Part shown: one piece after another, positions 12,812-59,235 of the stretch
Numbering within the stretch: the first letter of the stretch is position 1
Layout: each line of letters opens with the position of its first letter
NCBI RefSeq assembly: GCF_001027925.1
Contig: NZ_LECT01000010.1
Location: 1-64,000, forward strand
Origin: Rhodopirellula islandica
GTDB taxonomy: Bacteria > Planctomycetota > Planctomycetia > Pirellulales > Pirellulaceae
Length of the DNA: 64,000 nt
Direction of reading: 5' to 3'
The notes under the pieces: generated by a model
What the model saw: only the letters and a program-made list of their open reading frames with translations
What the model was told of the DNA's origin: nothing
Databases searched by the model: none
Made by a program: the position numbers and the translations under genes

Positions 12812-13496
12812 ATCGTGATTTCAGTGAGATCAAGAGAAAGAATGGCAGGTTGTGCTTCTAGAGTAACCAACGGCGAGCAGGGCTTCATCACTCACTCGCG
12901 TCAATCGGATGAGGCGAATCATCGCGATCGAGTCAGCACTAGGCACCGGATTCCCCCACGGTGGTGTCGCAAGAGGATTGATGACGTGATGCAGCCGAAG
13001 CTCGGGAAAACTCTTTCCAACCGGCGGAGGTAAACGGCGGTCCGATTCGGATGCTCCTCGTACCGGTATAGAAAAGAACCGCCAGTGCGGATGCAAGGCC
13101 TGGGGGTCTGTCAGGACTTGTTTTTAGGGTAGTGGACGAGGCCACGAGTCCTGAACTGGCGTCGAATCCAAGGACTCGTGGCCTCGTCCACTACGATCAA
13201 CCCTAACTTTTAGCTGTGACAGACCACGAGGGGGACTTGACAGGGTGGTTGAAGCAGATGCCCTTCCGAAGCGGGTAGTGCGGCTTTCAAACACCTTGCT
13301 TGTCACTTCTTGCGAATCCTGCCCGCCCAGGAGGTCGTGCAGTTTTATTTCACTTTCCTTTGGGAGGGTGAAATGCTGTCCATGCAACGCATAAGCCCCC
13401 CGCCTAAAAGCGGGCTCAAAGAACGGCGCGACCTCAACAGAGGAATGGATTCGTTGCCTCATCCACTACGAAATGCTGGCAACAGGCACACGTGAT
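12812..13496. other. Intergenic region with a large hairpin and repeat fragments
   Basis: No convincing gene. Positions 13129-13194 form a hairpin (annotated separately). Downstream sequence around 13440-13485 repeats part of that arm (CCTCATCCACTACGA). A 112-residue minus-strand frame (13124-13462) runs through the repeat and is not believed. The promoter of the M1 peptidase gene should lie near 12812-12900. Confidence 0.6.
13129..13194. repeat. Perfect inverted repeat, 24-bp arms
   Basis: Arms 13129-13152 (GTAGTGGACGAGGCCACGAG...) and 13171-13194 are exact reverse complements, separated by an 18-base loop. Beyond the arms, TTAGGG on the left pairs with CCCTAA on the right after a 6-base asymmetry. 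Either strand could fold into a very stable hairpin. It could be a mobile-element remnant or a bidirectional transcription end for the convergent region. No T-run follows, so a classic terminator is not supported. Confidence 0.9.
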
Positions 13497-44750: not shown

Positions 44751-47700
44751 ATGGACTGGATCGCGGAAGACCAACTCGGATCGCTCGGATTGCTGATGGG
44801 CGAGGCGGTGGAGCGTCTCGTCGATTCACACGATCAGGGTTTCGATTCCCGTGCAGCCATGCTGACGGTGAAGACTCCCACCCTGACCCAGGGCGACAAC
44901 GGCGTTCGCTTTGATTTCCAGGTGGTAGGCAATCGAGAAAAGCAACAAACCGTTGCTCTCGAGATCGTTCCCCAAGTCGACGAGGACGATCCGGGAGGGG
45001 TCGGGGAATTGACCAGCGAGTGCCAATGCGGATGCGTGGCGTTCCTGCGAGACCAATCGTGCCCGCACACGTTGGCCGCGGCCTGGTGGTTGCAAGAACA
45101 AATCGCTCGGCGAAGCGGCAACGGCCAACTGATCGAATTCCTCGGTGGCCTGAAAGCCGATGCGGTCGCAGCCGGCAAGCAGTTCGTCGATGAACTGTTG
45201 CGACGAGCCAAAAATTCGCGGCCCCCATTGGCCGAAGACGCCGAGCCGACCCGATTGCAGTGGCGGGTTCGCGTCAACATGGCATCGCAAACGGCTCCGC
45301 TGACGATCACGCCGTTCGAACAGAAACAACGCAAAGGCGGCAAGGGTTGGACCAAGGGCCGCGAGGTCCGTAGCTTCGACCTGCTCGATCAGAACCTGCT
45401 GACCGATCCTCTGGACAGCAAAATCGCGTCGTTGACGTCGGTGCCCACCCACGGCGTTCACGATGACAACTACGCCATCTTCGAAGCCCTGCGGATGCTG
45501 GCAGGCCACGAGAACGTCGCGTGGGACGATCAAAACGCGTTGCCGGTGGAAATCTTCTGCAGCCAACTGCTGTTGACGCTGCAGCCGGTCGAAGTCGAAA
45601 AGTCCAACAAACCCAAAGCATCCAAGAGCCAATCGGACAGCGAAGCCCCGGCGAAGAAAACGCCTGCCAAAAAAGCAAAGAAGCGCTCGGGCAAATCGGC
45701 CAACGAACTGCTGGACAACGTGACCACCACGCTGACCATGCCAGAATCCGAACCGGAGCCCGTCCGCAGCGTTGCCCCGACTGACACCATGATCGTTGAC
45801 GACCTGATCGCGGACGATGAAAAGGTCGAGGTTCAGTTTCAACCACGATTGTCGGTCGACGGAATCGACATCGATGTGCAGAAATGCGAAACCGTGGTCG
45901 GCGGATTGAGCCCGGTGGAACCGGCGATCATTTTGGCCGATGCCGAGGACGACCGAATCGTGCTGTGCACGCTGGCGGACCCGGCTGCGATTGGAATCAT
46001 TCAGTTCTTGCTTCGCGGTGACTACCGCGACACGTTGCTCGATCACGCCACGGCATCGCGTTTGGCGCTGGCCGCAGGTTCGATCGATTCGCTGATCCGA
46101 GTGGAATTGCCTCCGCAACTGGCTGGCCCCATTGTGCCGGCACCGTGTGAGTTGGTGCTGCAAATGCGTCCTCGTCCCGGTGCGGGATTGAAGGTTTCAC
46201 TGCGGGTGCACGAATCCCGACTGCGTGATTCGTTGGTGCCCGGGGACGCTCCCGAGTTGGTGCCGTGCTTGGCCGAAACCGGTCCGATCCGTCTGCAACG
46301 CGACTTGAAAGCCGAACTCGAAACCGCTGAAAAAACGATCCAACGTTTTGGGCTCAACCGACTGTCTCACGAGAGCACGATGGAGTGGGTCGCCCTGACC
46401 GATCACGCCGCCTTGGATTTGCTAGGTCGTTTGCACGATGCTGGCGATGAAGCCCCACGGATTGTTTGGCCCGAAGGCGAAACGTTCCGCGTGCGTGGCG
46501 AGATCACGCCGAAATCGTTGCGAATCAAAATCGATGACTCGCCGGATTGGTTCGGCATGACCGGCACCGTGACCGTCGACGGTGTCGACGTGCCGCTGCA
46601 AGATTTGTTGACTGCCGTCCGCGAAGATCGGCAACTCGTTCGAGTTGGCGATCGCCGATTTGCAAAAATCAGCGAAGCGTTCCGCAAGCGTCTGACGCAG
46701 TTGGGCGACACGCTGGTCAGCGAAAAGGGGCAACTGCGTTTGGCGGGTGCCGCCGTGCCGTTGGCTCGAGACGTGCTGGGCGACGACGTGACGCTGGAAA
46801 CGACCGCAACCTGGCACCAAGCGATTGAACGACTTGATTCGCTTCAGGATTGGGCACCCGATCGCCCCGAAGGCTTGGACGCCACCCTGCGTGATTATCA
46901 GTTGGATGGTTACCGGTGGCTCGCTCGCCTGAGTCGCTGGGGAGTCGGCGGCGTCCTGGCCGACGACATGGGTCTGGGGAAAACGGTCCAGACGCTGGGC
47001 ATCTTGGTGGAACGTGGCCCCACGGGTCCCGCGTTGGTCGTGGCACCGACCAGTGTCGGTGAAAACTGGGTGCGAGAAGCCGAGAAGTTCACGCCCGCGT
47101 TGACCGGCAAACTCTACCGTGATTGCGACCGCGACGAAGTCATCAAAACCTCAGGGCCCAACGACCTGTTGATCGTCAGCTATCAACTGCTGCAACGCGA
47201 TGCAAAACGATTTGCTTCGCGTGCTTGGCACACGCTGGTGCTCGACGAAGCTCAGTTCATCAAGAATTCGCAGACCAAGACATCCCAAGCGATCCGAACG
47301 CTCCAAGCCGATTGGCGTCTGGGACTGTCCGGCACGCCGCTGGAAAATCACCTGGGCGAATTGTGGAGTCTGTTCCGGACACTGAGCCCCGGGTTGCTCG
47401 GTTCTTGGCAACGATTCCGAAGTCGTTTCGCGGAACCGATCGAGCGCCACAACGACGCGGATCGCCGCGAATCGCTCGCTCGCTTGGTGCGTCCGTTTGT
47501 GCTGCGTCGAACCAAAGACAAGGTGCTGAAAGAATTGCCACCGCGCACCGAGATCACGCTTCGTGCGGAATTGTCCGCTCCCGAACGCAAACTCTACGAA
47601 GACGCTCGCTTGGCTGCTCTGGCGGAACTCACCGCCGGTGGTGGTGCTCCATCGCACGAAGGTCGACGCCGTATTCAGACGCTGTCGTGGCTGACCCGAC

Positions 47701-48272
47701 TGCGCCAACTCGCCTGTCACCCCTCCCTGGTTGAACCCAGCTGGAAGGGCACTTCGTCCAAGCTGCAACTGTTCTTGTCGCTGGTGGAAGAACTTCGTGA
47801 AGGCGATCACCGGGCACTCGTGTTCAGCCAATTCGTCAAACACCTCAGTGTCGTGCGAGCAGCCCTGGACGAACGTGGGATCTCCTACCAGTACCTCGAC
47901 GGGGCCACGCCATCACACGAACGGCAACGCCGCGTCGATGCGTTCCAAAATGGCGAAGGCGATCTGTTCTTGATCTCGCTGAAAGCCGGTGGAACGGGCC
48001 TGAACTTGACCGCCGCGGATTACGTGTTGCACCTCGACCCATGGTGGAACCCTGCGGTGGAAGACCAAGCGACTGACCGGGCTCACCGCATCGGACAAGA
48101 ACGCGCGGTCACCGTCTATCGCTTGGTCGCCGAGCGAACGATCGAGGAACAAATCCTTCAGCTCCACGCCGACAAACGCGAATTGGTGGCGGGCATTTTG
48201 GATGGCACCGATGCGGCTGCGAAATTGCAAACCCAGGATTTGATCGATCTGATCAAAGCCGAAATGAGCTGA
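44751..48272 (+). CDS. SWIM zinc-finger SNF2 helicase
   Basis: A 1173-residue protein. A SWIM finger lies near the N-terminus (CQC at 91-93 or CGC at 93-95, then CPH at 104-106). A Lys/Ala-rich linker (KTPAKKAKKRSGK, about 300-325) resembles histone H1-like tails. A beta-rich middle domain precedes the SNF2 ATPase: motif I ADDMGLGKTVQ (~740), motif II LDEAQ (~830, DEAQ rather than DEAH), LSGTPLENHLGELW, and the C-terminal helicase lobe with LISLKAGGTGLNLTAADYVLHLDPWWNP and TDRAHRIGQ. Bacterial SWIM-SNF2 proteins are DNA translocases of unclear role, often linked to stress or transcription recycling. Single gene. Confidence 0.95.
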   Translation: MDWIAEDQLGSLGLLMGEAVERLVDSHDQGFDSRAAMLTVKTPTLTQGDNGVRFDFQVVGNREKQQTVALEIVPQVDEDDPGGVGELTSECQCGCVAFLRDQSCPHTLAAAWWLQEQIARRSGNGQLIEFLGGLKADAVAAGKQFVDELLRRAKNSRPPLAEDAEPTRLQWRVRVNMASQTAPLTITPFEQKQRKGGKGWTKGREVRSFDLLDQNLLTDPLDSKIASLTSVPTHGVHDDNYAIFEALRMLAGHENVAWDDQNALPVEIFCSQLLLTLQPVEVEKSNKPKASKSQSDSEAPAKKTPAKKAKKRSGKSANELLDNVTTTLTMPESEPEPVRSVAPTDTMIVDDLIADDEKVEVQFQPRLSVDGIDIDVQKCETVVGGLSPVEPAIILADAEDDRIVLCTLADPAAIGIIQFLLRGDYRDTLLDHATASRLALAAGSIDSLIRVELPPQLAGPIVPAPCELVLQMRPRPGAGLKVSLRVHESRLRDSLVPGDAPELVPCLAETGPIRLQRDLKAELETAEKTIQRFGLNRLSHESTMEWVALTDHAALDLLGRLHDAGDEAPRIVWPEGETFRVRGEITPKSLRIKIDDSPDWFGMTGTVTVDGVDVPLQDLLTAVREDRQLVRVGDRRFAKISEAFRKRLTQLGDTLVSEKGQLRLAGAAVPLARDVLGDDVTLETTATWHQAIERLDSLQDWAPDRPEGLDATLRDYQLDGYRWLARLSRWGVGGVLADDMGLGKTVQTLGILVERGPTGPALVVAPTSVGENWVREAEKFTPALTGKLYRDCDRDEVIKTSGPNDLLIVSYQLLQRDAKRFASRAWHTLVLDEAQFIKNSQTKTSQAIRTLQADWRLGLSGTPLENHLGELWSLFRTLSPGLLGSWQRFRSRFAEPIERHNDADRRESLARLVRPFVLRRTKDKVLKELPPRTEITLRAELSAPERKLYEDARLAALAELTAGGGAPSHEGRRRIQTLSWLTRLRQLACHPSLVEPSWKGTSSKLQLFLSLVEELREGDHRALVFSQFVKHLSVVRAALDERGISYQYLDGATPSHERQRRVDAFQNGEGDLFLISLKAGGTGLNLTAADYVLHLDPWWNPAVEDQATDRAHRIGQERAVTVYRLVAERTIEEQILQLHADKRELVAGILDGTDAAAKLQTQDLIDLIKAEMS

Positions 48273-48486: not shown

Positions 48487-48621
48487 CGCTGGGCTGCGAA
48501 ATGTTTGGTGTGATGGAACGCATTCGTGTGCGCAAGTTTTCATCCCGGTAGGGATTTCAGATGGTAGCCGTCGGTAAGCGATCGCGCCACCGACGGACCT
48601 GTAGCCCGCGCCGCCACTCTC
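48487..48621. other. Spacer between two repeat elements
   Basis: Short sequence linking the miniature element and the composite element. ATCCCGGTAGGGAT near 48541-48554 is self-complementary and resembles a module of the composite element. Confidence 0.4.
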
Positions 48622-48872
48622 CATCCCGCCGTGGCCGATGGCCACGGCGGGATGGAGAGTGTTTTTTGGGACGCTCGTTTTCCGGGGGTACGCTGCTACG
48701 CAGCAACTCCCGGCTACCATCTGACATCCCTACCGGGATGAAGAAAGACAGCAAGCCGGAAGAAAAATTGCATTCGCTATCCGAACGCCAACACCAAACA
48801 TTTCGCAGTCCAGGCAAACACCCAAACAGCTCACAAGGTGACCCCCAATCATTCCTGCGTACCTGCTTAGCG
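48622..48872. repeat. ~250-bp composite palindromic element, copy 2
   Basis: Homologous along its length to 4793-5039. It keeps the palindromes CATCCCGCCGTGGCC...GGCGGGATG and a CCGGGGG...CTCCCGG variant in which both arms changed together, and ATCCCTACCGGGAT. The right end carries the half-element ending ATTCCTGCGTACCTGCTTA. It ends ~28 bases before the isochorismatase-type gene stop. Confidence 0.8.
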
Positions 48873-48899: not shown

Positions 48900-49643
48900 T
48901 CAGCCGTCGGTCTTGGCGGGGATCAGATTCACGACCGTTTCGATGACTTCGCCGATCGTCATGACTCGCGCGTATCGGTCGCGAAGCGTGGCCAGCGTCG
49001 CGTTGTGCAGCTCCGGCGTCACGGTCGCACAGCAATCGTCGACCAGGGTCACGAGGTATCCCAAATCGCATGCGTCCCGAACGGTCGTTTCGACACATTC
49101 GTTGGTGTAGACACCGACCACAAACAGGGATTCGATGCCCATGTTCTTGAGCACGTAATGCAGGTTCGTGGAACTGAACACGCCACTGGCGGTTTTGTTG
49201 ATGACGATTTCGTCGCGTTCGGGCAACGGCGCAACTTCCGTCAAGAACTCGGCCTCATGCGAACCGGGGGCCGCCAACAGATCCAAGCGTTTGTGACCTT
49301 TGCCACGATCTCGTCCGTCCTGAGTGAGCGACTGAATGCGAGTGTGGATGACCTCGAGGTTGCGACGCCGAAACGCTTCTTGCAGCCGCCGCACGTTGGG
49401 CAACACCGTTTCACTCAGCCGATCGAAGTAGTACTTCTGGCTCTCGTCTGAAACGCCGTGGTTGTTTCCTTCGGCAAAGACACCGCACCCCGGAGCCGCG
49501 TCGAGATACTGCAAGTCGATGCACAGCAACGCCGTGTGCCGCCCCACCAAAAACTCGCCGTGGGCAGGGTTGTCGACAAATGATTCGTGGTAGATTTCGC
49601 GAAGTGGATCGGGGTGTTCTTCGTGCGGTGCAAATTCGTTCAT
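48900..49643 (-). CDS. Isochorismatase-family hydrolase
   Basis: A 247-residue cysteine hydrolase. The catalytic triad of the family is visible: D43 (LLCIDLQ), K150 (VINKTASGVF) and C183 (VYTNECVETT). Members include N-carbamoylsarcosine, ureidoacrylate and biuret amidohydrolases as well as nicotinamidase; the group is not decided by sequence alone. Last gene of the seven-gene operon, 36 bases after the M20 amidohydrolase gene. In the context of a carbamoyltransferase and an M20 carbamoylase, a role in releasing ammonia or CO2 from a carbamoyl or ureido group is likely but inferred. The N-terminal ~35 residues form an extension before the core. Confidence 0.93.
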   Translation of the reverse strand: MNEFAPHEEHPDPLREIYHESFVDNPAHGEFLVGRHTALLCIDLQYLDAAPGCGVFAEGNNHGVSDESQKYYFDRLSETVLPNVRRLQEAFRRRNLEVIHTRIQSLTQDGRDRGKGHKRLDLLAAPGSHEAEFLTEVAPLPERDEIVINKTASGVFSSTNLHYVLKNMGIESLFVVGVYTNECVETTVRDACDLGYLVTLVDDCCATVTPELHNATLATLRDRYARVMTIGEVIETVVNLIPAKTDG

Positions 49644-49679
49644 GGTGCGCTTTCAATGCGTTCAATCGGTGGTGCCGGA

Positions 49680-50921
49680 CTACTCGGCAGATGGCCCAGC
49701 CATTTCAGCGAGCGAGTGGAGCAGCACATTGGCTCCGGCCTCGATGTCCTGCCAGGCGGTCCATTCCGCGGGCGAGTGACTTTGCCCAGACTTGCTGGGG
49801 ACAAAGATCATCCCCACGGGAATCATTCTTCCCATGATTTGGGCGTCGTGGGCAGCCCCACTGGGCATGATTTCATACTCAAGTTGCAATTTCTCGGTCT
49901 GCTGCTGAATTGCCTTCACGATCGAAACGCCACACGTGACCGGACTGATCAAGCTCTTCTGTTCAAACTCGAACATCAAACTTCGCCGACGAGCGATTGC
50001 CGAGAGCGCCTTCCGAAATGCATCGGCCAGCTCCTCCAGCACCTCCATGGAGGTGTCACGCACGTCCAAGGCGAATTCCACCAAGCCGGGCACCGTGTTG
50101 GTGGCCCCAGGAAGAATCTGAGCTTTCCCGATCGTTGCCCGACTTCGGTCGCTGCCGTTCTCTTCCAAAATTCGTGGGATCTCATGCGCGAAATCGGCCA
50201 ACCCCATGAACGCATCGTGCCGCATGTCCATTGGCGTGGTTCCTGCGTGGTTGGCTTCGCCTTTGAGCCGCACGGACCAGGTGAACAGTCCCGTGATTTG
50301 GTCGACGACCCCCACGGATTTCTGCAGCCGATCCAGCACGGGCCCTTGCTCGATGTGCATTTCCAAGTAGCAGTGCAGGGCCTCTGGATCTCTCGCCGCA
50401 TCCAACGCCGCGACGGGGTCGTAACCATGGCGAGCCATTTCATCCTGCAACGGAACGCCATTCATGTCGGTCATCGTCGCGATCATTTCCGGGTTGATTT
50501 GGCCGCAGACAGATTGCGATCCGAACATCCCGCCGAAGCGACCTTCCTCGTCACTGAAAGCAATCAGTTCGATCGTGCGTTCGAGCTGGACACCGGATTC
50601 CTTCAAGCAACGCAGGCATTCCAAACCTGCGACCACGCCCAGCGTCCCATCCAATGCCCCGGCACAAGGAACGGTGTCGATATGAGACCCCACCAAGACT
50701 CGCGGCAAATCGGTTTTTCCAGCGAGGGTCGCCGAAATATTCGCGGCCCCATCCATCGCGTTTGGCAATCCCGCGGCCTGGATCCGGTCGATCAGCCAAC
50801 GTTTGCCCTCGATGTCGGCGTCCGTGAACGCCATCCGGTAGATGCCATGGTCTTCTGAATTCCGGCCGATCTGCGAGAGTTCCAGGATATCGGCTTTGAT
50901 CCGTTCCAGATTCACTTGCAT
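49680..50921 (-). CDS. M20-family carbamoylase / allantoate amidohydrolase-like
   Basis: A 413-residue metal-dependent amidohydrolase. Typical motifs of the AllC / N-carbamoyl-amino-acid hydrolase branch are present: GSHIDTVPCAGALDGTLG, AFSDEEGRFGG, LEMHIEQGPVLD and NHAGTTPMDMRHDA. The active site binds two metal ions and cleaves the N-carbamoyl group to ammonia and CO2. The ATG at 50921 is 5 bases after the asnB stop; a TTG three codons earlier would overlap it. It lies between an AsnB-type gene and an isochorismatase-type gene, so it probably acts on the same ureido compound that the carbamoyltransferase makes or uses. The substrate is unknown. Confidence 0.94.
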   Translation of the reverse strand: MQVNLERIKADILELSQIGRNSEDHGIYRMAFTDADIEGKRWLIDRIQAAGLPNAMDGAANISATLAGKTDLPRVLVGSHIDTVPCAGALDGTLGVVAGLECLRCLKESGVQLERTIELIAFSDEEGRFGGMFGSQSVCGQINPEMIATMTDMNGVPLQDEMARHGYDPVAALDAARDPEALHCYLEMHIEQGPVLDRLQKSVGVVDQITGLFTWSVRLKGEANHAGTTPMDMRHDAFMGLADFAHEIPRILEENGSDRSRATIGKAQILPGATNTVPGLVEFALDVRDTSMEVLEELADAFRKALSAIARRRSLMFEFEQKSLISPVTCGVSIVKAIQQQTEKLQLEYEIMPSGAAHDAQIMGRMIPVGMIFVPSKSGQSHSPAEWTAWQDIEAGANVLLHSLAEMAGPSAE

Positions 50922-50926
50922 GGCAA

Positions 50927-52846
50927 TCAATCCACTGCCGGCAAAGGCAGACCCTCAACGTACTGGCCTTGAAGCATGTGCAATTGCAAGACGTGATTCA
51001 TGACGATGTCATTGCGACGCGCGATCGTGCCATCGCTTTCTTTCCAGGCATCGTCGATGAACTGCATCAACTTGCCGTGCTCAAAGAAGCCCAACGAGGC
51101 GACGCGCGAAGGTGTCAGCCAATGATCAATCATCTCTTGCACGGCGGCGCGTTTCACCGGGTCGGTGTGAGCTGGCGGTGCCATGAAGGCAAACTTTTTG
51201 CGTTCGTACAGTTCCCGCGGCAACACATTGACCATCGCCTCGCGGAGCACCCATTTTTCAACCCCATTGCGGATGCGAATGTTCGGCGGAATCGTGGTGG
51301 CGTACTCCGCGACATGGTGATCCAGGAACGCCGGACGGGCTTCCATGCTGTTGGCCATGTCCATCCGGTCACCGCCCCAGGTCAGAATCTGACCTTCCAA
51401 CATCGTCTTGCTCCACGTGTACTGTGACACGTCCAAACGATGGCGACCGCGAACTTGAGCGGGATCGATGGCACGGGCGACTTCGCCGACCGGGTCGTAT
51501 TCCCGCAAGAGATCGGTGAGCGAGGACGACAGGATCGGCTCAAATCGTTTCAGCACCATCATCCAGGGTTGGATCCAAGACGGTGTGAACCCGCACAGGT
51601 CTTGCCAAGCACTGTGCTGCAGATCTTCTTCGGCCAAGATGGCACCGGCGAAGATGCCGCCTTCATCGTCGCGGCCCAGCCAATCTCGTTTGAAGAACGG
51701 GTAGCCACCGAACAGTTCATCGCTGCCTTCCCCGGTGATCACGGCTTTGTAATTGCAAGCTCGAACGCGGCGGCTCATGTGCCATTTTGCAACCGCCAAC
51801 GTGTTGTAGAAAGTTCGCTCGGCATGCCACGTGGCTCGTTCGAAAGCCGGGCCATAGAGTTCCTTTTCCGTGAGTCGCAGCAACTCTTGTTCGGCACCGG
51901 TGCTTTCCGCCATCCGTTTGGCGATGTTCGATTCGTCGTACTCATCACTGTCGAAGGCGATTGTGAAGGCTTTGACAGGCGACTGCTGCAGCGTGTTGGC
52001 CAGCCCCAAAATGGAACAACTGTCGATCCCGCCCGACAAATAACATCCAACGGGCACGTCCGCTTCCAAACGCGTCGCGACGGCGTCGATCAAGCGATCC
52101 TGAACACCTTGGATGAACGGTTCGGGATCCGCGTTCTCGTCATGCGATTCGGGGAATTCAAAATCCCACCAACGCTTCGTTTGCACCTCCAGTGAGTCAC
52201 CGTTTTTCTGGACCACCAGCATGTGCCCAGGCAGCAACGCTTCGACGCCTTCAAAGGCAGTGGATCCCGGCACCATGACCTGCATCATTTGGTGAACGGC
52301 GGCCTTGGGACACATCCGAGGTTCGATGTCAGGATGCTGCAGGATCGATTTGACCTCAGATCCCCAAACGATGCCGTTGTCATTGACCGCGTAATACAGC
52401 GGCTTCACACCAAATCGATCTCGAATCAGAACCAAACGTTCCTTGCGGTCATCGTAAAGCACCACAGCAAATTCGCCGCGAAGGTGATCGACCATGGCGA
52501 GATCGTGCTTCAGATACAGTGGCAGCGTGATCGCACTGTCGCTTTTTCCGTTGCACTTGTATTTCTCACAGGCCAGCGACGTTCGAATGCGTTTGTAATC
52601 GTACAGCTCGCCGTTGACCGTGACCGCGTAGTCACCATCGTCGGTTTCAATCGGCTGATGACCACACGCCAAACCAATGATCGACAATCGGGTGTGCCCC
52701 ATCGCCAGCCCGCGTTCCTGAAACAAACGGCTGCCGCGCTCGTCAGGACCGCGGTGGTCCAAAACCTCGAGCATCGGGTCAAGCGCAAAACGCAATTCGC
52801 GTTCGTTGGTACGGGATGGATTCCAAAATCCGGTGATGCCACACAT
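50927..52846 (-). CDS. asnB: Asparagine synthase-type glutamine amidotransferase
   Basis: A 639-residue AsnB-family protein. The start is set by the family: after removal of Met the N-terminal Cys of MCGITGFW is the glutaminase nucleophile; a longer frame would bury it. The glutaminase domain shows GHTRLSIIGLACGHQP and VTVNGELYD. The synthetase domain has the PP-loop SGGIDSCSI and GEGSDELFGGYPFF. The C-terminal region has MAPPAHTDP, unlike many true AsnB enzymes. It may amidate aspartate or another carboxylate. Position 58 bases after the carbamoyltransferase and directly before the carbamoylase argues for a specialised substrate. Whether it makes ordinary asparagine is undecided. Confidence 0.92.
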   Translation of the reverse strand: MCGITGFWNPSRTNERELRFALDPMLEVLDHRGPDERGSRLFQERGLAMGHTRLSIIGLACGHQPIETDDGDYAVTVNGELYDYKRIRTSLACEKYKCNGKSDSAITLPLYLKHDLAMVDHLRGEFAVVLYDDRKERLVLIRDRFGVKPLYYAVNDNGIVWGSEVKSILQHPDIEPRMCPKAAVHQMMQVMVPGSTAFEGVEALLPGHMLVVQKNGDSLEVQTKRWWDFEFPESHDENADPEPFIQGVQDRLIDAVATRLEADVPVGCYLSGGIDSCSILGLANTLQQSPVKAFTIAFDSDEYDESNIAKRMAESTGAEQELLRLTEKELYGPAFERATWHAERTFYNTLAVAKWHMSRRVRACNYKAVITGEGSDELFGGYPFFKRDWLGRDDEGGIFAGAILAEEDLQHSAWQDLCGFTPSWIQPWMMVLKRFEPILSSSLTDLLREYDPVGEVARAIDPAQVRGRHRLDVSQYTWSKTMLEGQILTWGGDRMDMANSMEARPAFLDHHVAEYATTIPPNIRIRNGVEKWVLREAMVNVLPRELYERKKFAFMAPPAHTDPVKRAAVQEMIDHWLTPSRVASLGFFEHGKLMQFIDDAWKESDGTIARRNDIVMNHVLQLHMLQGQYVEGLPLPAVD

Positions 52847-52904
52847 AAATGGTGTTGGTGATTCGTAGAGATGGATGAATAGAAAGAAGTGAACGACCGC
52901 GAAT

Positions 52905-53987
52905 TCAGATGCCGCTGATCCGATCGGTTCGATCCAAAACGGCCGCCAACAAAGCCTGCCGAACAAATACCGCGCCAGCCGCCTGGGCGAAGTAAAGATT
53001 GTGGTCGGTCTCGTCCAAGTCCTCGCTCAACTCAGCGTTGCGAGCGAGCGGGTGCATGATCACGGCACCGGGCTTGAAAGGACTGCTCGCATCCAAGCTG
53101 TATCGTGAGTCGAGATTGCGATAGCTGTCGCCCAAAAACGCGATCGAGTTCACATAGACGACATCCAATTCGGGCAGGACCTCTTGGACATCGTTGGTGA
53201 TTTCAATGGGAATGGGTGATTGCTCGATCGGTTCCGTCAAATCCAAACCGACCGGGTCGGCCATCTCGCTGATCAACGTGATCTTGCTGACCGCGCCCGC
53301 GAACATCAGCGACAATCGCAAGAAACTCTTCACCGCTCGCATCGATCCCGGCGTGCCGATGATTCCCAGGTGCACTCGTTTTTCCGGTGGGCAATGTTCG
53401 GAATGCAGTTCGGGTCGCCACTTCAGCAACGCATACCAATCGATCAACGCTTGAGTGGGATGGTGCCCCGAACCGTTGCCCGCGTTGATCAACGGCCTTT
53501 TCAAGTTCTTGCGAATCTCATCCAGGCTGTCCGTGTCCGGGTGACGCATGATGACCACGTCCCCGTAGGTGTTGAACATCTCCCCGATGTCCGCCAGGGA
53601 TTCTCCCTTGGCAATGCCAGTGACCTGACCATCGGGCACGGATAGAACTTTTCCATCCAGTCGCTGCACCGCGCTTTCAAACGACAACCGTGTTCGGGTG
53701 CTGGGTTCAAAGAACGCCGTGATGGCGATCTTGCCGTCCAGCGGTTTGTCCATTTCAACGTTGCGGGACTCCAAGAGAGCCGCCAACTGAGCAATCGCCA
53801 AAATGGTGCGTCGGTCAAACTGACGCGGGTTCAGAATCGATTGCCCCGCGAGCGACTTGAGCGTCTCGCGGTCAATAACCCCGTCGAACGCGTCCAGCAA
53901 CGACAGCGGCGACAATTTCTGTCCCTTGGAGTTGGTCGCCGTTGCACTCAGTGCTTCGGACACTTGTTGGTTAGAAAGTGAATTCAT
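52905..53987 (-). CDS. ATCase-family carbamoyltransferase with altered acceptor site
   Basis: A 360-residue transcarbamylase. Carbamoyl-phosphate motifs are intact: STRTR (96-100), the KGES loop (127-130), RHP (148-150), HPTQ (176-179). The acceptor side differs from aspartate transcarbamylase. Where E. coli PyrB has TRVQ (R229, Q231 hold aspartate), this protein reads NSIA (280-283). HPLPR is HPLAR (312-316), and NAGDG is NAGNG. A ~50-residue N-terminal extension is present. I infer that the amino acceptor is not aspartate, or that the enzyme runs toward carbamoyl phosphate. The operon holds no regulatory PyrI subunit and no other pyrimidine gene. It is translationally close (4-base gap) to the small membrane gene upstream. 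Confidence 0.9.
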   Translation of the reverse strand: MNSLSNQQVSEALSATATNSKGQKLSPLSLLDAFDGVIDRETLKSLAGQSILNPRQFDRRTILAIAQLAALLESRNVEMDKPLDGKIAITAFFEPSTRTRLSFESAVQRLDGKVLSVPDGQVTGIAKGESLADIGEMFNTYGDVVIMRHPDTDSLDEIRKNLKRPLINAGNGSGHHPTQALIDWYALLKWRPELHSEHCPPEKRVHLGIIGTPGSMRAVKSFLRLSLMFAGAVSKITLISEMADPVGLDLTEPIEQSPIPIEITNDVQEVLPELDVVYVNSIAFLGDSYRNLDSRYSLDASSPFKPGAVIMHPLARNAELSEDLDETDHNLYFAQAAGAVFVRQALLAAVLDRTDRISGI

Positions 53988-53991
53988 TGGA

Positions 53992-54123
53992 TTACCAGAT
54001 TTGCTTGTCTCGCAGGTCGATCCACAAAAATCCGATCAGCACCGCCACGCCGAGCACACAAAGCACCAGACTGCCAATCACTAGAAACTGAAAGAAGAAA
54101 ACCGAAAACATCAGCTCAGTCAT
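53992..54123 (-). CDS. 43-residue single-span membrane protein
   Basis: An ORF too short for most gene finders: start at 54123, stop at 53992. It overlaps the symporter stop by 8 bases and ends 4 bases before the carbamoyltransferase start. The sequence is one hydrophobic helix (LVIGSLVLCVLGVAVLIGFLW) preceded by an aromatic N-terminus (MTELMFSVFFFQF) and followed by a charged tail (IDLRDKQIW). Small proteins next to sodium:solute symporters are known to act as accessory subunits (for example the YhdT/PanF and YjcH/ActP pairs). No homologue is recognised. Its tight coupling makes it a good candidate for an unannotated subunit of the transporter. Confidence 0.75.
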   Translation of the reverse strand: MTELMFSVFFFQFLVIGSLVLCVLGVAVLIGFLWIDLRDKQIW

Positions 54124-55564
54124 CCGCCAGAGTATCGAATTCGAAGTTGTCTGGCCAAAAGAAGCAGCAGACGGCAAACGTGATCCCTGAAACCGCCGCC
54201 CCAATCAACGATGCCGTGAACCAACCGATTTGGAAATACGCCACCAAACCCAATGCACTCCCCAGGACCATCGAGGCACACGCCGCGATGGGACTGGCCG
54301 AACGAAAATACAACCCACACAACACCGGCCAAATGCAACTGCCAACCAACGGCCCGGCAAAGAACAGGACCGTCGCCAGCGACCCCACGTTCGGATACGC
54401 GGCCACCCAGGCGATCGCCCCCAACCCAATGATAGCAACGGCTGACCACCTGCGTTTGGAGGGATCGGAGGCATGTTTGTTTGTGACGCGTCGCTGAATC
54501 GGTTCGGCGATGTCATTGACGATCAAATCTGATGTCGCGGCCAGCAAACTATCGATGCTGGAAGCCAGCGAGCAAAAAACGACGACAAAAACGAGCAACG
54601 CACCGCCGGTCCCCAGCAAGGTTGCAGCAACCAATGGTCCCGCGGTGTCCGGTTCGCTGATTCCAATCCCCAGTGCGGGCGCGGCAAGACCCAGGAACCC
54701 TGCCACGATGGGGACGGGCAACCAGAGCACGCCGCCCAGTGCATAGGCCTTTGGACCGACACCTTCACGCATCGCAAACGCGCGACTCCACCACACGTTG
54801 CTGTGAAAAATTTCACCCAATCCAAACAGCAAGTTATTGAAAAGTGCCATCAACGCCGCCGGAAAGAACGCCGACAACAGCATCGGACGCTCGTTGCTGA
54901 GCTGTTCATGCACCTCTTGGATTTCGACCTGGGTCAAGACCGCAACCGCAACCACGACCAATCCAGCCAAGATGATCAGACTCTGAATGAAGTCGGTTCC
55001 GATCACCGCGTACATGCCACCGAACAAGGTGTACGCCACGCACACCAGCACAACGACGGACATCCCAACCTCGTAGGGAATGCCTGACAATACATTCAGA
55101 AGTTTCCCCCCCGCCATCGACATGGAAACCAACCAAGTCACCGCGTAGAACAACGAGATGATCAAGAACGGGACCGTGCCCAACCACCCATAGCGACGAC
55201 GCATGAATTCGACCGCCGTGTACCCCTTGGGCATCAATTTTCGAATGCGACCGCTCATCGGAGCGAAAGCGAACAACCCAAAGCTCGCGGTGGAATACGC
55301 CAACATCCCCCAAATCCCAAGCTGCAACGCGTACTGCGGCGCCAGCATCGTCGTGTTGGAAGTGATCCAGGTTGCGACCGCCGTCGCGGTTCCCATCGCC
55401 AGGCCCACGTTGCGACCGGCCACCGCGAAACCGTCGTACGACTTGGCTTGCCGGCCCCACCACCAACCCAGTGCAATCCACAACACGCCGAACATTGCCA
55501 GCAGGATGTATCCCGCTTCGGCACTGAGAATCGCTCCGCTTGCTGCCAACATCAGGCTATTCAT
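54116..55564 (-). CDS. Sodium:solute symporter (SSS family), possibly ureide/urea type
   Basis: A 482-residue polytopic membrane protein with about 13 predicted helices. The ATG at 55564 overlaps the preceding gene by four bases (ATGA); a longer frame adds 27 non-family residues. SSS family hallmarks: GWWWGRQAKSYDGFAVAGRNVG, ATAVATWITSNTTMLAPQYA and FGGMYAVIGTDFIQSLIIL. The ATWITSNTTMLAPQYALQLGIWGMLAY pattern (shown in pieces) resembles the region of Dur3 urea transporters. This similarity is by eye only. The operon partners are carbamoyl-handling enzymes, so import of a ureido compound, driven by sodium, is the working inference. Confidence 0.93.
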   Translation of the reverse strand: MNSLMLAASGAILSAEAGYILLAMFGVLWIALGWWWGRQAKSYDGFAVAGRNVGLAMGTATAVATWITSNTTMLAPQYALQLGIWGMLAYSTASFGLFAFAPMSGRIRKLMPKGYTAVEFMRRRYGWLGTVPFLIISLFYAVTWLVSMSMAGGKLLNVLSGIPYEVGMSVVVLVCVAYTLFGGMYAVIGTDFIQSLIILAGLVVVAVAVLTQVEIQEVHEQLSNERPMLLSAFFPAALMALFNNLLFGLGEIFHSNVWWSRAFAMREGVGPKAYALGGVLWLPVPIVAGFLGLAAPALGIGISEPDTAGPLVAATLLGTGGALLVFVVVFCSLASSIDSLLAATSDLIVNDIAEPIQRRVTNKHASDPSKRRWSAVAIIGLGAIAWVAAYPNVGSLATVLFFAGPLVGSCIWPVLCGLYFRSASPIAACASMVLGSALGLVAYFQIGWFTASLIGAAVSGITFAVCCFFWPDNFEFDTLADD

Positions 55565-56158
55565 GATCGGGTTCCTTGCACGATCACAACGACCACGGCC
55601 AAGAAAACAAGAGCGCCGATGACGAGCAGCACCATCGCCTGCCAAACCGGCCAGTGCAGAACCTGCACCGTTGCAGGCATTTCCGAGCGTGCAATCAATT
55701 CGCCTTCTGCATCCAACGCCTCGACGTGATAGCGATACATTCCATCGGGCAGCCCCGAGACAAACGCGATCGGCAGTGTCCCCTCATAGACGACACGCTG
55801 AGCGGAATCCGCCATCCCAACCGACGGCTCAAGCGTTCCCGAATCCTGGCCATCCAGTGAACCGGAACGGACCGTTGCGCCGTCGCTTGGATCCAGCTCA
55901 TAGACTCGAAAGGAACCCAGCGATTCGCTGGCATTCGTCACATCCCAAGTCAACTGGAAGTAACCTTCGCGAGCGACCAGGGGCTGTTCAAGAAGACTTG
56001 GTTGAAATGCGACCGAGATGGTGGAATCAAAACCATCCGACGGTTCTTGACCGGCAACAGGCGAGGCCTGAACCAGAAAAATCCACCCGATGACCGACAG
56101 AAAAGCGGTGAAAAACGGGCGGAAAAACGATCTGCCTCCAGGGCAACAGATAATTCAT
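55561..56158 (-). CDS. Membrane-anchored beta-rich protein, operon head; start unresolved
   Basis: The certain part (55561-55953) encodes ~130 residues: an Fn3-like beta-domain (GSFRVYELDP, DGMYRYHVEALDAEG) and a C-terminal membrane helix (WQAMVLLVIGALVFLAVVVV). The same frame stays open further upstream and encodes a likely signal peptide (RPFFTAFLSVIGWIFLVQA), but contains no standard start codon back to a TGA at 56155-56157. An ATG at 56158 lies in another frame and would reach this frame by one base change at the T5-CC run near 56122-56127, giving MNYLLPWRQIVF followed by RPFF. Either a frameshift, a sequence error or a rare start codon is involved. The stop overlaps the symporter start (ATGA). 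Confidence 0.62.
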
Positions 56159-56371: not shown

Positions 56372-56929
56372 TCAGGGCGACTGAAACATGCTGGCTTCCC
56401 AGATGAAGTTCCCATTCTTCAAACGCACTCTCGGTGGGATCACCGCCAAGACTTCCGCACCACCCACCGTGTCGCCTGCGGAGACAAACTGCGTTTCTTC
56501 GCCGAAACGAATGATGGCACGTGTTTTTCCCACGTCGGCGAATCCGAGCACGACGTATTCGGACGCCTTGGTCGGCTTCACAACCGTGGACGGTGCCGAT
56601 TGGTCGATGTGAAAGGGGTCCTTGCGATCAGGGAACGGCGGAACAAACCGAATCGCCTGGTTCCCCGGAACAGTCTTCAAGCCCTGGTCGCGAATCCCCA
56701 GATCCGACTTCGTTTTCTGGTCTTGCATCGCGACACGCCGAATCGTGTCGATCGACTCGGGATCGACTCCACACCCCGGCAGCACCACGATCTTCACGAA
56801 CAACAACACGAATGCGATTGCCCATTTCAAACGAGTCGAACGCGGCTTGACCGACTTTTTCGACATGGTTTTCTTGTTGGTCTGGCTTTCCTGGGAGATC
56901 GACTCCCGTGTCAAACGTTGCTCCGCCAT
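56372..56929 (-). CDS. PilP-like pilus assembly / type II secretion protein
   Basis: A 185-residue protein. The ATG at 56929 overlaps the secretin stop by one base (TGATG). From this start, residues 34-53 form a membrane helix. An internal ATG at 56866 would give a normal lipoprotein signal with lipobox LPGC, as in PilP, so both starts are plausible. The C-terminal part ([36 protein letters not shown], in pieces; then [18 protein letters not shown]) matches the beta-domain of PilP/GspC homology regions, which connects the inner-membrane complex with the secretin. Last gene of the pilus-type operon. Confidence 0.85.
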
Positions 56930-59235
56930 CACGGTTGCTCCAACGGATGAATGTGCACCGGTGGGTACATCGATGGTGTTCCCAGCATGTGGGTGGCCGA
57001 ATCACCGGCTCGCAATGGTTCATTGACGGTCGACTCTTCCAACATCATTCCATTGGAATGAAACATGACCGAATCGGAGGGCACGGCCTCGGAGGTCGCC
57101 GCCCCCGAAGGCACGGAGTCAAATTCGTACAGAGGCATCATTTGCCCAGGCACCACCGGAGCGGGATTCATCAATCCGGGATAGGCGAACTCCATCGGTG
57201 CAATGCCTTCCCCACCCAACATTTGAAGTTCGTTTGTGCCACCATTCAGACGCACTCGGGGATGGTGGTTGGGACAATTCAAATCGTAACATTCGGGAGA
57301 CTGCGGGCACACAGAAGCGTACGGGATCGAATCCAACTGACGAGTGGCGACGCACTGGGCTTGTCGTGACCGTTCGTTCCCATGGTCGTAGGGTGAAATG
57401 ATTTCGGGTTTCAAAAAGACGATCAGTTCGCTTTCTCGCACCTGGGTGTCGTGGCTGCGAAATAGTTTGCCGATGTATTTGAGATCCCTCAGGTAGGGCA
57501 CGCCGCTGACGTCTTCGATGATTCGTTTTTGCCGCAAACCACCCAACGTGAACATGTGGCCGTTGGCGACCCGCACGGTGGTTTCTGCGGTGCGACTGTC
57601 GATCACCGGGTTGTTTTCAATCTCGCCCACTTGGACGCTGTATTCGGGCTGAACCTTCAATTCGATCGTGTTGTCGTTGCTGATCCGCGGGGTCACCTTG
57701 AGGATGATCCCGGCGTCCTTGAATTCGACCTGGGCGAAGACGACATTGCTTCCTTCAGCAGGCTGAGCGGCGACAATCGGGATCTGCTGAACGATTTTGA
57801 TCGACGCTTCCCGGCGATCAATCGCGGTGATCGATGGATCGGCCAACAGCTTGGCTTCATCACTGCTGTCCAAAGCGCTGAGCAGGAAGCTGGTGTCAAA
57901 GTTGTCCGTCAAGGTTCGAATGCCCATCGTGGTGGCGCCACCGGAACCAAGCGTGCCAAAGGTCACCGCTTGCTCCACGTTGCCAGCAAAATCAGCGAGC
58001 GCCGATTCATCGGTGGTGTTCAACCGAAAACCGCGTCCCCAATTGACCCCCAGCATTTCGAGCTCTTCCAAACTGACGTCGTAGATCAACGCTGTGATTC
58101 GAACCTGAGCACGCGGCACATCCAGTTGCTTGAAGGCTTGCGATGCCAAGTCCAACTGCGCGCGATTGCCTTTGATCATGATGCGGTTCTCCGCTTCATA
58201 GACCGCCACGATCGTGCCTTCCCCGAGTGCCTCCTGAAGTGACTCACGCATCTCCGAGGCTTCGGTGAACTGAGGCGTCAAATAGATCAACTCCGTCGCC
58301 AGCGTGTCATAAACACTTGGTGCCCGCGCTCCTTGACGATCGGTGGAGGCCCCGCCGCCCGAGGTTTCGCCCCCGGTTCTGCTACGTGGCATCGCCGCTT
58401 CCGGTGACATCGCAGTCAACATTTCTTGCACGCGGTTGATGTTGGTCTTGTTGTCGACGACCAGCATCGCCCCCCGTCCAACCGCTTGGATTCGGCCGCG
58501 ATCGGACAACAGCAACTGCGCCGCGGAGATCGTGGCACTCATCTCGTTCTCATCCGCGGTTTGAAAACGCAATGTTCGTGACTCGAACTCCGGACTTCCT
58601 GTGCCCACTTCATCCAGCGGCAACACCACCAAACTGTTTCCCGCGGCGATGTAACCGTAGCCGGACGAGGTCAAAATCGCGGACAGCACGTCCCGCAGAG
58701 GAGCGTCCTTGAAGACTCCCGAGACATCGCCGGTCACCTTCTCACCGGCCACGATATTGATGTTCCAGAGATCCGAGAGCAGGAAAACCACTTCTTGCAG
58801 TGACGTTTTGCGAAACGTGATGCTGCCTCGCTGCAACAGAACTTCCTCAATCGCCAGGGGAGGCCCGGTCAACGAAACGGAACTTCGGGGTGTGAGTGTC
58901 TCGGCAACGCCGTCGGACTCAACACTGGATTCGGTGTCAGGCGAATCAGTGGAGGAGGTCGCCCCCAAAGCAGGACCTGCCATCGTACTTGTCGCCGTCG
59001 TCACGCTGGCTTCGACGTTGGTAGCAACCGTTGTCTCAGCCGCGGTCAACGTCGAACCGCTCCATGTCATCCCGAGCATCGTCAACGACACGCCGATGCC
59101 CAACGAGGCTGATTGAATCAATCCCACAAGCGCGCGTCGAGTTCTCACACAACGCAAGGTCATCGGACTCGCGAGCGAATCGCTCGGAGTTGAAATGACA
59201 GGTTCAGCTTGTGACGCGGAGCCTTCCTTGGCCAT
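56929..59235 (-). CDS. Secretin (PilQ/GspD-type outer-membrane channel)
   Basis: A 768-residue protein. An N-terminal hydrophobic segment (about 34-58) precedes an AMIN/STN-like region ([37 protein letters not shown] in pieces), N-domains, then the secretin channel domain ([64 protein letters not shown] in pieces) ending with [16 protein letters not shown]. Beyond this, ~150 residues are unlike the usual secretin S-domain: a cysteine cluster ([12 protein letters not shown]) and a Pro/Met/Ser-rich end. Operon partners are PilM/N-, PilO- and PilP-like proteins, so it is part of a type IV pilus or type II-like secretion machine. Confidence 0.93.

Follow-up and report, generated by a model that had tools for sequence, protein, structure and literature searches.

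A seven-gene operon of Rhodopirellula islandica with a carbamoyltransferase distinct from PyrB and a possible role in a carbamoylated amino-acid osmolyte

What might a bacterium do with a carbamoyltransferase, an amidotransferase, two hydrolases and a symporter encoded side by side? In the window, the whole 64,000-nucleotide stretch of Rhodopirellula islandica DNA analysed here, seven genes lie tightly packed on the minus strand, spanning positions ∼48900–56158. A sequence-only reading had described them as joined by ATGA or 8-base overlaps or short gaps, and had placed each soluble enzyme in a family that handles carbamoyl, amide or ureido groups; the coordinates confirm the former, and Pfam agrees with the latter. 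The same reading put a beta-rich membrane protein first. This gene (BETA, 55561..56154) is present on the minus strand and encodes a signal-peptide-like N-terminus, an FnIII/Ig-like beta-sandwich and a C-terminal TM helix, but the ATG at 56158 is out of frame with its body. The BETA frame is open from 56154; because of the frame of ATG 56158, and because a stop interrupts that frame in the relative at locus L038, we left the BETA start without an assigned codon.

The stop of BETA and the start of an SSS-family sodium/solute symporter (54116..55564; Pfam SSF, E 2.8e-19) share an ATGA overlap at 55564–55561. The symporter gene overlaps by 8 bases (54123–54116) that of a 43-residue single-TM protein with a D...W tail (53992..54123), which ends 4 bases before an ATCase-like carbamoyltransferase (CT, 52905..53987; OTCace_N/OTCace). 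After 58 bases comes an AsnB-type glutamine-dependent amidotransferase with an N-terminal Cys (50927..52846; Asn_synthase and GATase), whose start is at 52846 (MCGITGFW) and not at TTG 52966. An M20 hydrolase of the N-carbamoyl-amino-acid type (49680..50930; Peptidase_M20) overlaps it by 4 bases if TTG 50930 is the start, the alternative being ATG 50921, and 36 bases further lies an isochorismatase-like cysteine hydrolase, a predicted amidase (ISO, 48900..49643; Isochorismatase). BETA and the 43-residue protein matched no Pfam family. In the AF2 model of BETA (pLDDT 84.4), the best fold-search E-values were ∼6e-4 to 1e-2, with TM-scores by query length of 0.31–0.46 among the 50 rows shown, and we take the FnIII/Ig-like match to indicate a probable fold type and not homology. 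Downstream, a consensus scan alone marks a terminator-like hairpin on the minus strand (48770..48788). Beyond it lies a 20-pair palindrome (48615–48661). A sigma-70 scan gave zero promoter matches, with 2.6 expected from shuffles.

Among the 14 Pirellulaceae loci with close CT relatives (L034–L047), 12 carry all seven genes in unchanged order, so the arrangement in this family is not due to chance. The last hydrolase is missing in the stretches fetched for L041 and L045, as is M20 in the former; L046 has a gap of ∼1.4 kb ahead of the last gene, and the symporter matches of L039 are split over two frames. A flanking secretin gene was seen only in the five closest loci (L034–L038), and five further loci (L033 and L048–L051) gave a distant ATCase-like match only, with no operon.

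Outside the genus, conservation narrows to a core of five genes, found again across Planctomycetota, Verrucomicrobiota, Bacteroidota and Myxococcota: the FnIII-like membrane protein, the symporter, a membrane protein of ∼40 residues, CT and AsnB. A wider survey of CT covered 80 loci out of 100 relatives. There tblastn matched the symporter in 79 and AsnB in 78, BETA homologues occur in 69, and a hydrophobic ORF with a D...W-type tail is found in 76 of the 77 examinable loci, with I, L or V before the Trp in 72 of these. By protein clustering, M20 is present in 47 of the 80 loci, ISO in 41 and both in 40, in varied orientation, which leaves seven with the M20 cluster and no ISO; tblastn counts were 51 and 42. 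Of 12 Bacteroidota loci flanked on both sides by 5 kb or more, eight lack M20 but retain CT and AsnB, and two of these eight contain a divergent carbamoylase-like ORF. M20 and the cysteine hydrolase are a detachable pair, which these eight loci lack.

Occurrence is patchy, with the unit in 5 of 288 genomes of the phylum of Pelagicoccus and in 1 of 395 and 1 of 282 genomes in two other sampled phyla, each single case being the centre genome itself. The named isolates that carry it are nearly all known as marine; at least two carriers, Chitinophaga japonensis and a Sphingobacterium, are not. Viral contigs, searched with patterns from a single sequence, yielded no CT relative. Plasmid records matched CT in 101 cases, all below 60% identity (29–37% in the 15 listed), and the sole full-length match among those listed, from Comamonas, has no operon-like neighbours.

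CT belongs to the ATCase/OTCase superfamily by its carbamoyl-phosphate site. The S-T-R-T motif, K84, R105, H134 and Q137, which we take to form that site, are kept together with R167 in 79–80 of 80 sequences at each position of the family alignment (79 relatives and the window's own CT). R229 and Q231, the residues that bind the aspartate side chain, are replaced by Ser and Ala in 79 of the 80, and P268 of PyrB is Ala in CT. Both R and Q are present in all 36 control ATCases readable at the two sites, which remained from 46 loci after 3 without a motif ORF, 3 of the CT family, 2 OTC-like and 2 gapped were dropped. CT scores below the ATCase cut-offs of NF002032 (171 versus 263 bits) and TIGR00670 (169 versus 237), whereas a separate PyrB elsewhere in the genome exceeds them at 361 and 287 bits; in all nine further genomes with CT we found at least one second ATC/OTC-like match. 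The failure of both models, the true PyrB elsewhere and the lost aspartate contacts together indicate that CT is not PyrB, and the separate PyrB rules out CT as the only one. The AF2 model of CT has a mean pLDDT of 67 from a shallow alignment and was set aside. CT is near enough to ATCase to be misread as PyrB, and the Ser/Ala signature would separate the two.

The sequence-only reading had made a conserved cluster and a separate canonical pyrB its own tests. Conservation held up in relatives, even outside planctomycetes, and the separate gene was found; hence neither outcome named against that reading, an unconserved cluster or CT as sole PyrB, occurred.

AsnB exceeds the general asparagine-synthase cut-off (TIGR01536, 394 versus 267 bits) and falls short of that for the NAGGN amidotransferase (TIGR03104, 258 versus 570 bits; its relative at L161 scores 283), so amidation of an alpha-carboxyl remains putative. 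Cys1 and the Asp of the SGGxDS PPi loop are each kept in 77 of 79 aligned sequences, the window's included. A sister relationship to the NAGGN amidotransferase was considered and rejected on identity only: four plasmid matches so annotated are 27–29% identical, versus 31–39% for the best other AsnB types. M20 exceeds the cut-offs of NF006771 (561 versus 399 bits) and the hydantoinase/carbamoylase model TIGR01879 (367 versus 204), matches structure 3n5f at E 4e-76, and lies below AllC (TIGR03176, 283 versus 598) and ErtE (NF058540, 362 versus 520). Its presumed metal and catalytic residues are kept in 48 of 48 aligned sequences, and an Asn and an Arg that we assume to bind carboxylate in 43 and 46. 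ISO is a member of the isochorismatase-like cysteine amidohydrolases, with an Asp/Lys/Cys triad in 42 of 42 aligned sequences; its 74 bits on the biuret amidohydrolase model (cut-off 370) show that it is not that equivalog.

The interpretation that we favour, at about even chances, is that the genes of the operon serve to build an uncharged N-carbamoyl-amino-acid amide as a compatible solute, to import it and to break it down for reuse. We infer the order of reactions, the amino acid, the transport substrate and the physiological role. With carbamoyl phosphate as donor, CT would carbamoylate the alpha-amino group of an amino acid whose side chain is neutral; AsnB, using ATP and nitrogen from glutamine, would then convert the alpha-carboxyl to an amide, removing the last charge. 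Leaked or environmental solute would be recovered by the Na+-coupled symporter together with its ∼40-residue partner, and the FnIII-like protein may take part. Once salinity drops or nitrogen becomes scarce, the cysteine hydrolase would strip the amide and M20 the carbamoyl group, yielding the amino acid, CO2 and ammonia. The sequence-only reading had offered synthesis and breakdown as alternatives. Synthesis fits better, because AsnB and CT occur together in nearly every relative and the hydrolases are often missing, but the layout suggests both, two synthetic steps being mirrored by two hydrolytic ones.

The neighbourhood of some loci is suggestive of a compatible-solute system. In six of the 80 loci (L083, L084, L088, L089, L094 and L101), betaine-synthesis genes (GSMT/SDMT) and a BCCT uptake transporter gene adjoin the operon, and L085 has only fragments of such genes. 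All but L101, a Phycisphaerales contig, are Pirellulaceae, and these GSMT-linked Pirellulaceae loci may reflect one event. Model scoring of the linked genes covered L089, where GSMT reaches 492 bits (cut-off 350) and SDMT 374, under its cut-off of 550. The OtsAB trehalose synthase lies near the operon in L116. Osmolyte genes are linked in a minority of loci and are absent from the window itself. GSMT is not a general partner: in 26 genomes other than those of the GSMT-linked loci it exceeded the cut-off in three, far from CT. Crude regular expressions applied to flanking ORFs of >150 aa revealed no glutamine synthetase, carbamoyl-phosphate synthase, carbamate kinase or MscS motifs. A MarR regulator is present in the fetched flanks of 18 of 80 loci; such a regulator is also described in NAGGN clusters (PMC8070244) and in ectoine clusters (PMC13342039).

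Data from a relative bear on this reading. Genome G004, which we take to be that of R. baltica SH1, carries the operon, and the NMR result for this species counts against an osmolyte. The solutes seen are glutamate, sucrose, trehalose and MGG, CGA (N-carbamoyl-glutamine 1-amide) is not among these, and the main text of that paper does not contain the word 'amide' (PMC3694870). Nor does the main text of a stress-transcriptome study of R. baltica contain 'carbamoyl', 'asparagine' or 'symporter' (PMC2754498). The reported osmolyte pool would suit a nitrogen- and carbamoyl-rich storage compound, or another dedicated N-carbamoyl metabolite that is no osmolyte, built by CT and AsnB through the same enzyme logic and remobilised by the hydrolase pair. 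We consider this unlikely; it leaves unexplained the linked betaine-synthesis, BCCT, MarR and L116 trehalose genes and the marine bias of named isolates.

Somewhat less probable is import of an external ureide and its degradation by the hydrolases for nitrogen, with CT running backwards to carbamoyl phosphate. Twelve of the 14 Pirellulaceae loci carry the symporter and both hydrolases, which agrees with this, and M20 also exceeds the cut-off of a subfamily model named for allantoate amidohydrolase. Against it, CT and AsnB persist in the eight Bacteroidota loci without M20, AsnB enzymes spend ATP to build amides, and osmolyte genes adjoin some loci. That the transferase would recover carbamoyl phosphate, as the sequence-only reading had suggested, is unsupported, since no carbamate kinase turned up in the flanks in the crude motif scan.

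We think it improbable that the product is a specialised metabolite, an antibiotic or signal, that bears a ureido-amide group. AsnB-type enzymes do occur in such pathways and the distribution is patchy, but inspection of ten loci by eye revealed no recurring scaffold synthase or exporter, and the conserved transporter is of the SSS type, a family of importers. That CT is simply the organism's ATCase amid unrelated neighbours has almost no chance of being right: its 47 PDB sequence matches with E <1e-10 are all ATCases or OTCases, but on sequence evidence this is already contradicted by the separate PyrB above the cut-offs that CT misses, the loss of R229 and Q231, and a core kept across phyla.

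If the osmolyte interpretation is true, the operon extends carbamoyltransferase specificity beyond aspartate and ornithine and supplies genes for an osmolyte chemistry known to us only as a 1991 compound, and the solute is to be expected in marine members of Planctomycetota, Verrucomicrobiota, Bacteroidota and Myxococcota. How does it compare with known systems? CT shares with PyrB the superfamily and the carbamoyl-phosphate site, and differs in failing the equivalog models and lacking R229, Q231 and P268. The YgeW operon likewise sets a carbamoyltransferase-family gene alongside an M20 hydrolase, but to our knowledge has no AsnB, and CT scores 26 bits on the model of this knotted carbamoyltransferase (cut-off 500).

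CGA, reportedly described in 1991, is the only N-carbamoyl-amino-acid amide solute that we know of. The solute of the operon is possibly this compound of the gammaproteobacterial genus Ectothiorhodospira, which is not represented in the 80 loci surveyed out of 100 CT relatives. The likeness lies in the carbamoyl and amide groups; CGA bears both groups that the operon enzymes would install and remove (PMC1224877, PMC7824335), and the open-access literature yielded no paper on its biosynthetic genes.

In the Pseudomonas operon for the osmolyte NAGGN (N-acetylglutaminylglutamine amide; PA3459–PA3461), an AsnB-family enzyme also caps an N-blocked glutamine product as an amide, and an aminopeptidase-type gene lies inside the operon beside a divergent MarR gene, PA3458 (PMC8070244). 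There the N-cap is acetyl, whereas here it would be carbamoyl, added by the ATCase-like CT; the operon described here further differs in its M20 carbamoylase type, cysteine hydrolase, symporter, microprotein and FnIII-like protein, and its AsnB fails the NAGGN model. Although their chemistry and enzymes are unrelated to those of the operon, the ectoine clusters of Planctomycetota likewise combine osmolyte synthesis with a sodium symporter of the SSS family (EctI) and a MarR regulator (EctR) (PMC13342039).

The seven packed minus-strand genes described in the sequence-only reading are indeed present in the window, running from ~56154 to 48900. In order, they encode BETA (55561-56154, putative start), an SSS symporter (54116-55564), a 43-residue membrane protein (53992-54123), an ATCase-like carbamoyltransferase (CT, 52905-53987), an AsnB-type protein (50927-52846), an M20 hydrolase (49680-50930) and an isochorismatase-like hydrolase (ISO, 48900-49643). 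Pfam agrees with all of these assignments except BETA and the 43-residue protein, which have no Pfam match. The ATG at 56158, proposed earlier as the start of the first gene, does not fit: its frame differs from that of the BETA body and contains a stop in the related locus L038. From a stop shortly upstream as far as TTG 55953, the BETA frame of the window has no usual start codon. Because the same upstream stop precedes BETA in five relatives (L034-L038), and an in-frame ATG is found in the sequence stretch compared for L035, L036 and L038 and not for L034 and L037, the odd BETA start is not a lone sequencing error. A consensus scan, the only basis for either feature, places two structures 3' of the operon: at 48770-48788 a hairpin resembling a terminator, and at 48615-48661 a palindrome of 20 pairs with a T-run after it on the plus strand, a possible terminator. 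An SNF2-family helicase (44751-48272, plus strand) and a secretin (56929-59235, minus strand) flank the operon and appear unrelated to it.

Within the genus, CT is found in 12 of 13 genomes, counting the window's own, at 81-100% identity, and in the same search in 15 of 60 genomes spread over four genera. Eighteen stretches were fetched, 14 with a close CT (L034-L047) and four (L048-L051) with a distant ATCase-like match only and no operon. The cluster is conserved in related genomes, as a shared pathway had implied, with the full set of seven in unchanged order in 12 of the 14 close-CT Pirellulaceae loci; within the fetched stretches L041 is without M20 and ISO and L045 without ISO, and L046 has a gap of ~1.4 kb ahead of ISO. 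The secretin gene adjoins the operon only in L034-L038 among the fetched loci. In L039 (5619-7042), the SSS match switches frame near residue 194, perhaps through a frameshift.

A scan of 392 genomes of the phylum returned one close CT relative besides the window's own genome (G084; 63% identity, 474 bits; next match, 154 bits). A scan of genome contigs yielded 100 relatives, and the best 80 (L082-L161) come from Pirellulaceae, Phycisphaerales, other Planctomycetota, Verrucomicrobiota, Bacteroidota and Myxococcota; this set shares several genomes with the other loci (L105, for example, is G084), and the counts are not additive. Elsewhere the gene is rare: it occurs in 5 of 288 genomes sampled from the Pelagicoccus phylum, two of them already known, and in 1 of 395 and 1 of 282 from the Flavilitoribacter and Paraliomyxa phyla, both being the centre genomes themselves. 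The named isolates carrying CT are, we believe, nearly all marine, Chitinophaga japonensis and a Sphingobacterium being exceptions.

The reading of CT as PyrB is rejected, since it scores below two ATCase models (171 and 169 bits; cut-offs 263 and 237), a separate ATCase is present and R229 and Q231 are replaced. The canonical PyrB that the earlier reading had asked after is encoded in the same genome, at 361 and 287 bits against those two models; the third such gene there encodes an OTCase (378 bits; cut-off 306). ATC/OTC-type matches number three in each of the 15 CT-bearing genomes. In other phyla, nine named genomes carry CT plus at least one second match, 23-37% identical and unscored against the models. 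When 79 relatives and the window's own sequence are aligned to E. coli PyrB, S52, T53, R54, T55, K84, R105, H134, Q137 and R167 are each retained in 79 or 80 of 80, and R229 is replaced by Ser, Q231 by Ala and P268 by Ala in 79 of 80 each. Control loci for other matches numbered 46 (L015-L032, L053-L080), 43 with an ORF containing the motif; after removal of three CT family members, two OTC-like sequences and two gapped at the sites, R229 and Q231 are retained in 36 of 36. In a FastTree phylogeny the family, including the three CT-type controls, forms one clade (stem 1.83 substitutions per site, support 0.893). In ATCase, R167 and R229/Q231 bind the aspartate carboxylates. Judged from these residues, the CT acceptor would be an alpha-amino acid with a neutral side chain.

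The core of the operon is BETA-SSS-microprotein-CT-AsnB because of the locus counts for these five genes. Among the best 80 of the 100 relatives, tblastn finds SSS in 79 loci and AsnB in 78, and BETA homologues cluster in 69. Of the 77 loci where SSS and CT were both found as clustered ORFs, 76 have between the two a hydrophobic ORF that ends in a D...W tail, and in 72 of these the Trp follows I, L or V; the window's single-TM microprotein of ~40 residues matches no Pfam or NCBIfam model. M20 clusters in 47 of the 80 loci and ISO in 41, 40 being common to both (51 and 42 by tblastn). Layout of this pair was counted where CT has 5 kb or more of flank on both sides, flanks being shorter in the remaining 31 of 79 loci with a clustered CT (L139 has no clustered CT ORF), and phyla were assigned from record titles. 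The pair is co-directional and downstream in 13 of 13 Pirellulales loci. Among 17 Verrucomicrobiota loci it is co-directional downstream in six, opposite upstream in seven, opposite downstream in one, M20 without ISO in one and absent from two; the 12 Bacteroidota loci comprise three co-directional downstream, one opposite downstream and eight absent. Three of four Myxococcota loci have M20 without ISO and one lacks both, and the two from other Planctomycetota show one opposite upstream pair and one M20 without ISO. In two of the eight pair-less Bacteroidota loci, CT and AsnB are separated by an ORF that weakly matches carbamoylases: in L117 (10773-13685) it is 970 residues long, resembles a carbamoylase over part of its length (127 bits; cut-off 399) and matches nothing in Pfam, and in L110 a similar match lies near 11947-13110. 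In G084 (L081), BETA, SSS, microprotein, CT and AsnB run in one direction and MarR, M20 and ISO in the other. The gene layout across loci, including these opposite strands, sets an anabolic/uptake module apart from a distinct catabolic one.

Residue counts for the remaining enzymes include the window's own sequence. AsnB keeps Cys1 and the PPi-loop Asp in 77 of 79 each; it passes the general model for asparagine synthase (394 bits; cut-off 267) and falls short of the one for the amidotransferase of the osmolyte N-acetylglutaminylglutamine amide (NAGGN; 258 bits, cut-off 570). M20 exceeds the hydantoinase/carbamoylase family model and a subfamily model named for allantoate amidohydrolase (561 bits; cut-off 399), its top PDB sequence match being N-carbamoyl-L-amino acid hydrolase 3n5f (E 4e-76). 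All 48 aligned M20 sequences have the full set of metal and catalytic residues, and most keep an Asn (43 of 48) and an Arg (46 of 48) that we take to be carboxylate ligands. The ISO Asp-Lys-Cys triad is kept in 42 of 42; ISO is distant kin of cysteine hydrolases, a biuret hydrolase among them. BETA is predicted to be a beta-sandwich with a C-terminal helix taken as transmembrane (pLDDT 84.4), with weak structural matches only, to FnIII/Ig-like folds.

In the pathway we propose, CT would install a carbamoyl group and AsnB an amide, giving an uncharged amino-acid derivative; ISO and then M20 would strip amide and carbamoyl in the reverse of installation order, and SSS with its small partner would import the solute. 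The sequence-only reading, either uptake and breakdown of a ureide or synthesis of a carbamoylated amino-acid derivative, is supported in part and extended into pairs of installing and removing enzymes. We put the chances evenly that the product is a compatible solute, a role that we infer together with the identity of the amino acid. N-carbamoyl-glutamine 1-amide (CGA), a solute of Ectothiorhodospira reported in 1991, is a tentative candidate, somewhat less likely than not; no paper on genes for CGA was found in the open-access literature, a scope outside which most subscription papers fall. The operon-carrying genome G004, a close relative, is presumably R. baltica SH1. Two reports on R. baltica count against the compatible-solute reading: the solute pool, which one gives as glutamate, sucrose, trehalose and MGG (PMC3694870), and the stress-transcriptome paper, where carbamoyl, asparagine and symporter are absent as words from the main text (PMC2754498).

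Osmolyte genes adjoin the operon in several other loci; in the window there is none among the scanned neighbours. The order in L089 is MarR, GSMT, SDMT (glycine-betaine synthesis), BCCT (uptake) and then BETA-SSS-CT-AsnB-M20-ISO, with GSMT at 492 bits (cut-off 350) and SDMT at 374 bits, under its cut-off of 550 (E 5e-112). By tblastn with the L089 proteins, GSMT, SDMT and BCCT also adjoin the operon in L083, L084, L088 and L094. The same search places them beside it, but on the opposite strand, in the Phycisphaerales contig L101, where the contig end cuts BCCT. Fragments of all three beside the operon in L085 (6212-6924) look like a decayed betaine gene set. GSMT is above cut-off in 3 of 26 other genomes, far from CT there; the linked loci lie outside those 26. 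L116 has the trehalose synthase OtsAB nearby (784 bits; cut-off 634). One MarR-type cluster, two members of which score above Pfam MarR, occurs in 18 of the 80 loci, with 11 copies opposite and eight parallel to CT. Among known systems, the NAGGN operon is described as under the control of a MarR regulator (PMC8070244), and ectoine clusters contain MarR regulators and can include SSS importers in Planctomycetota (PMC13342039).
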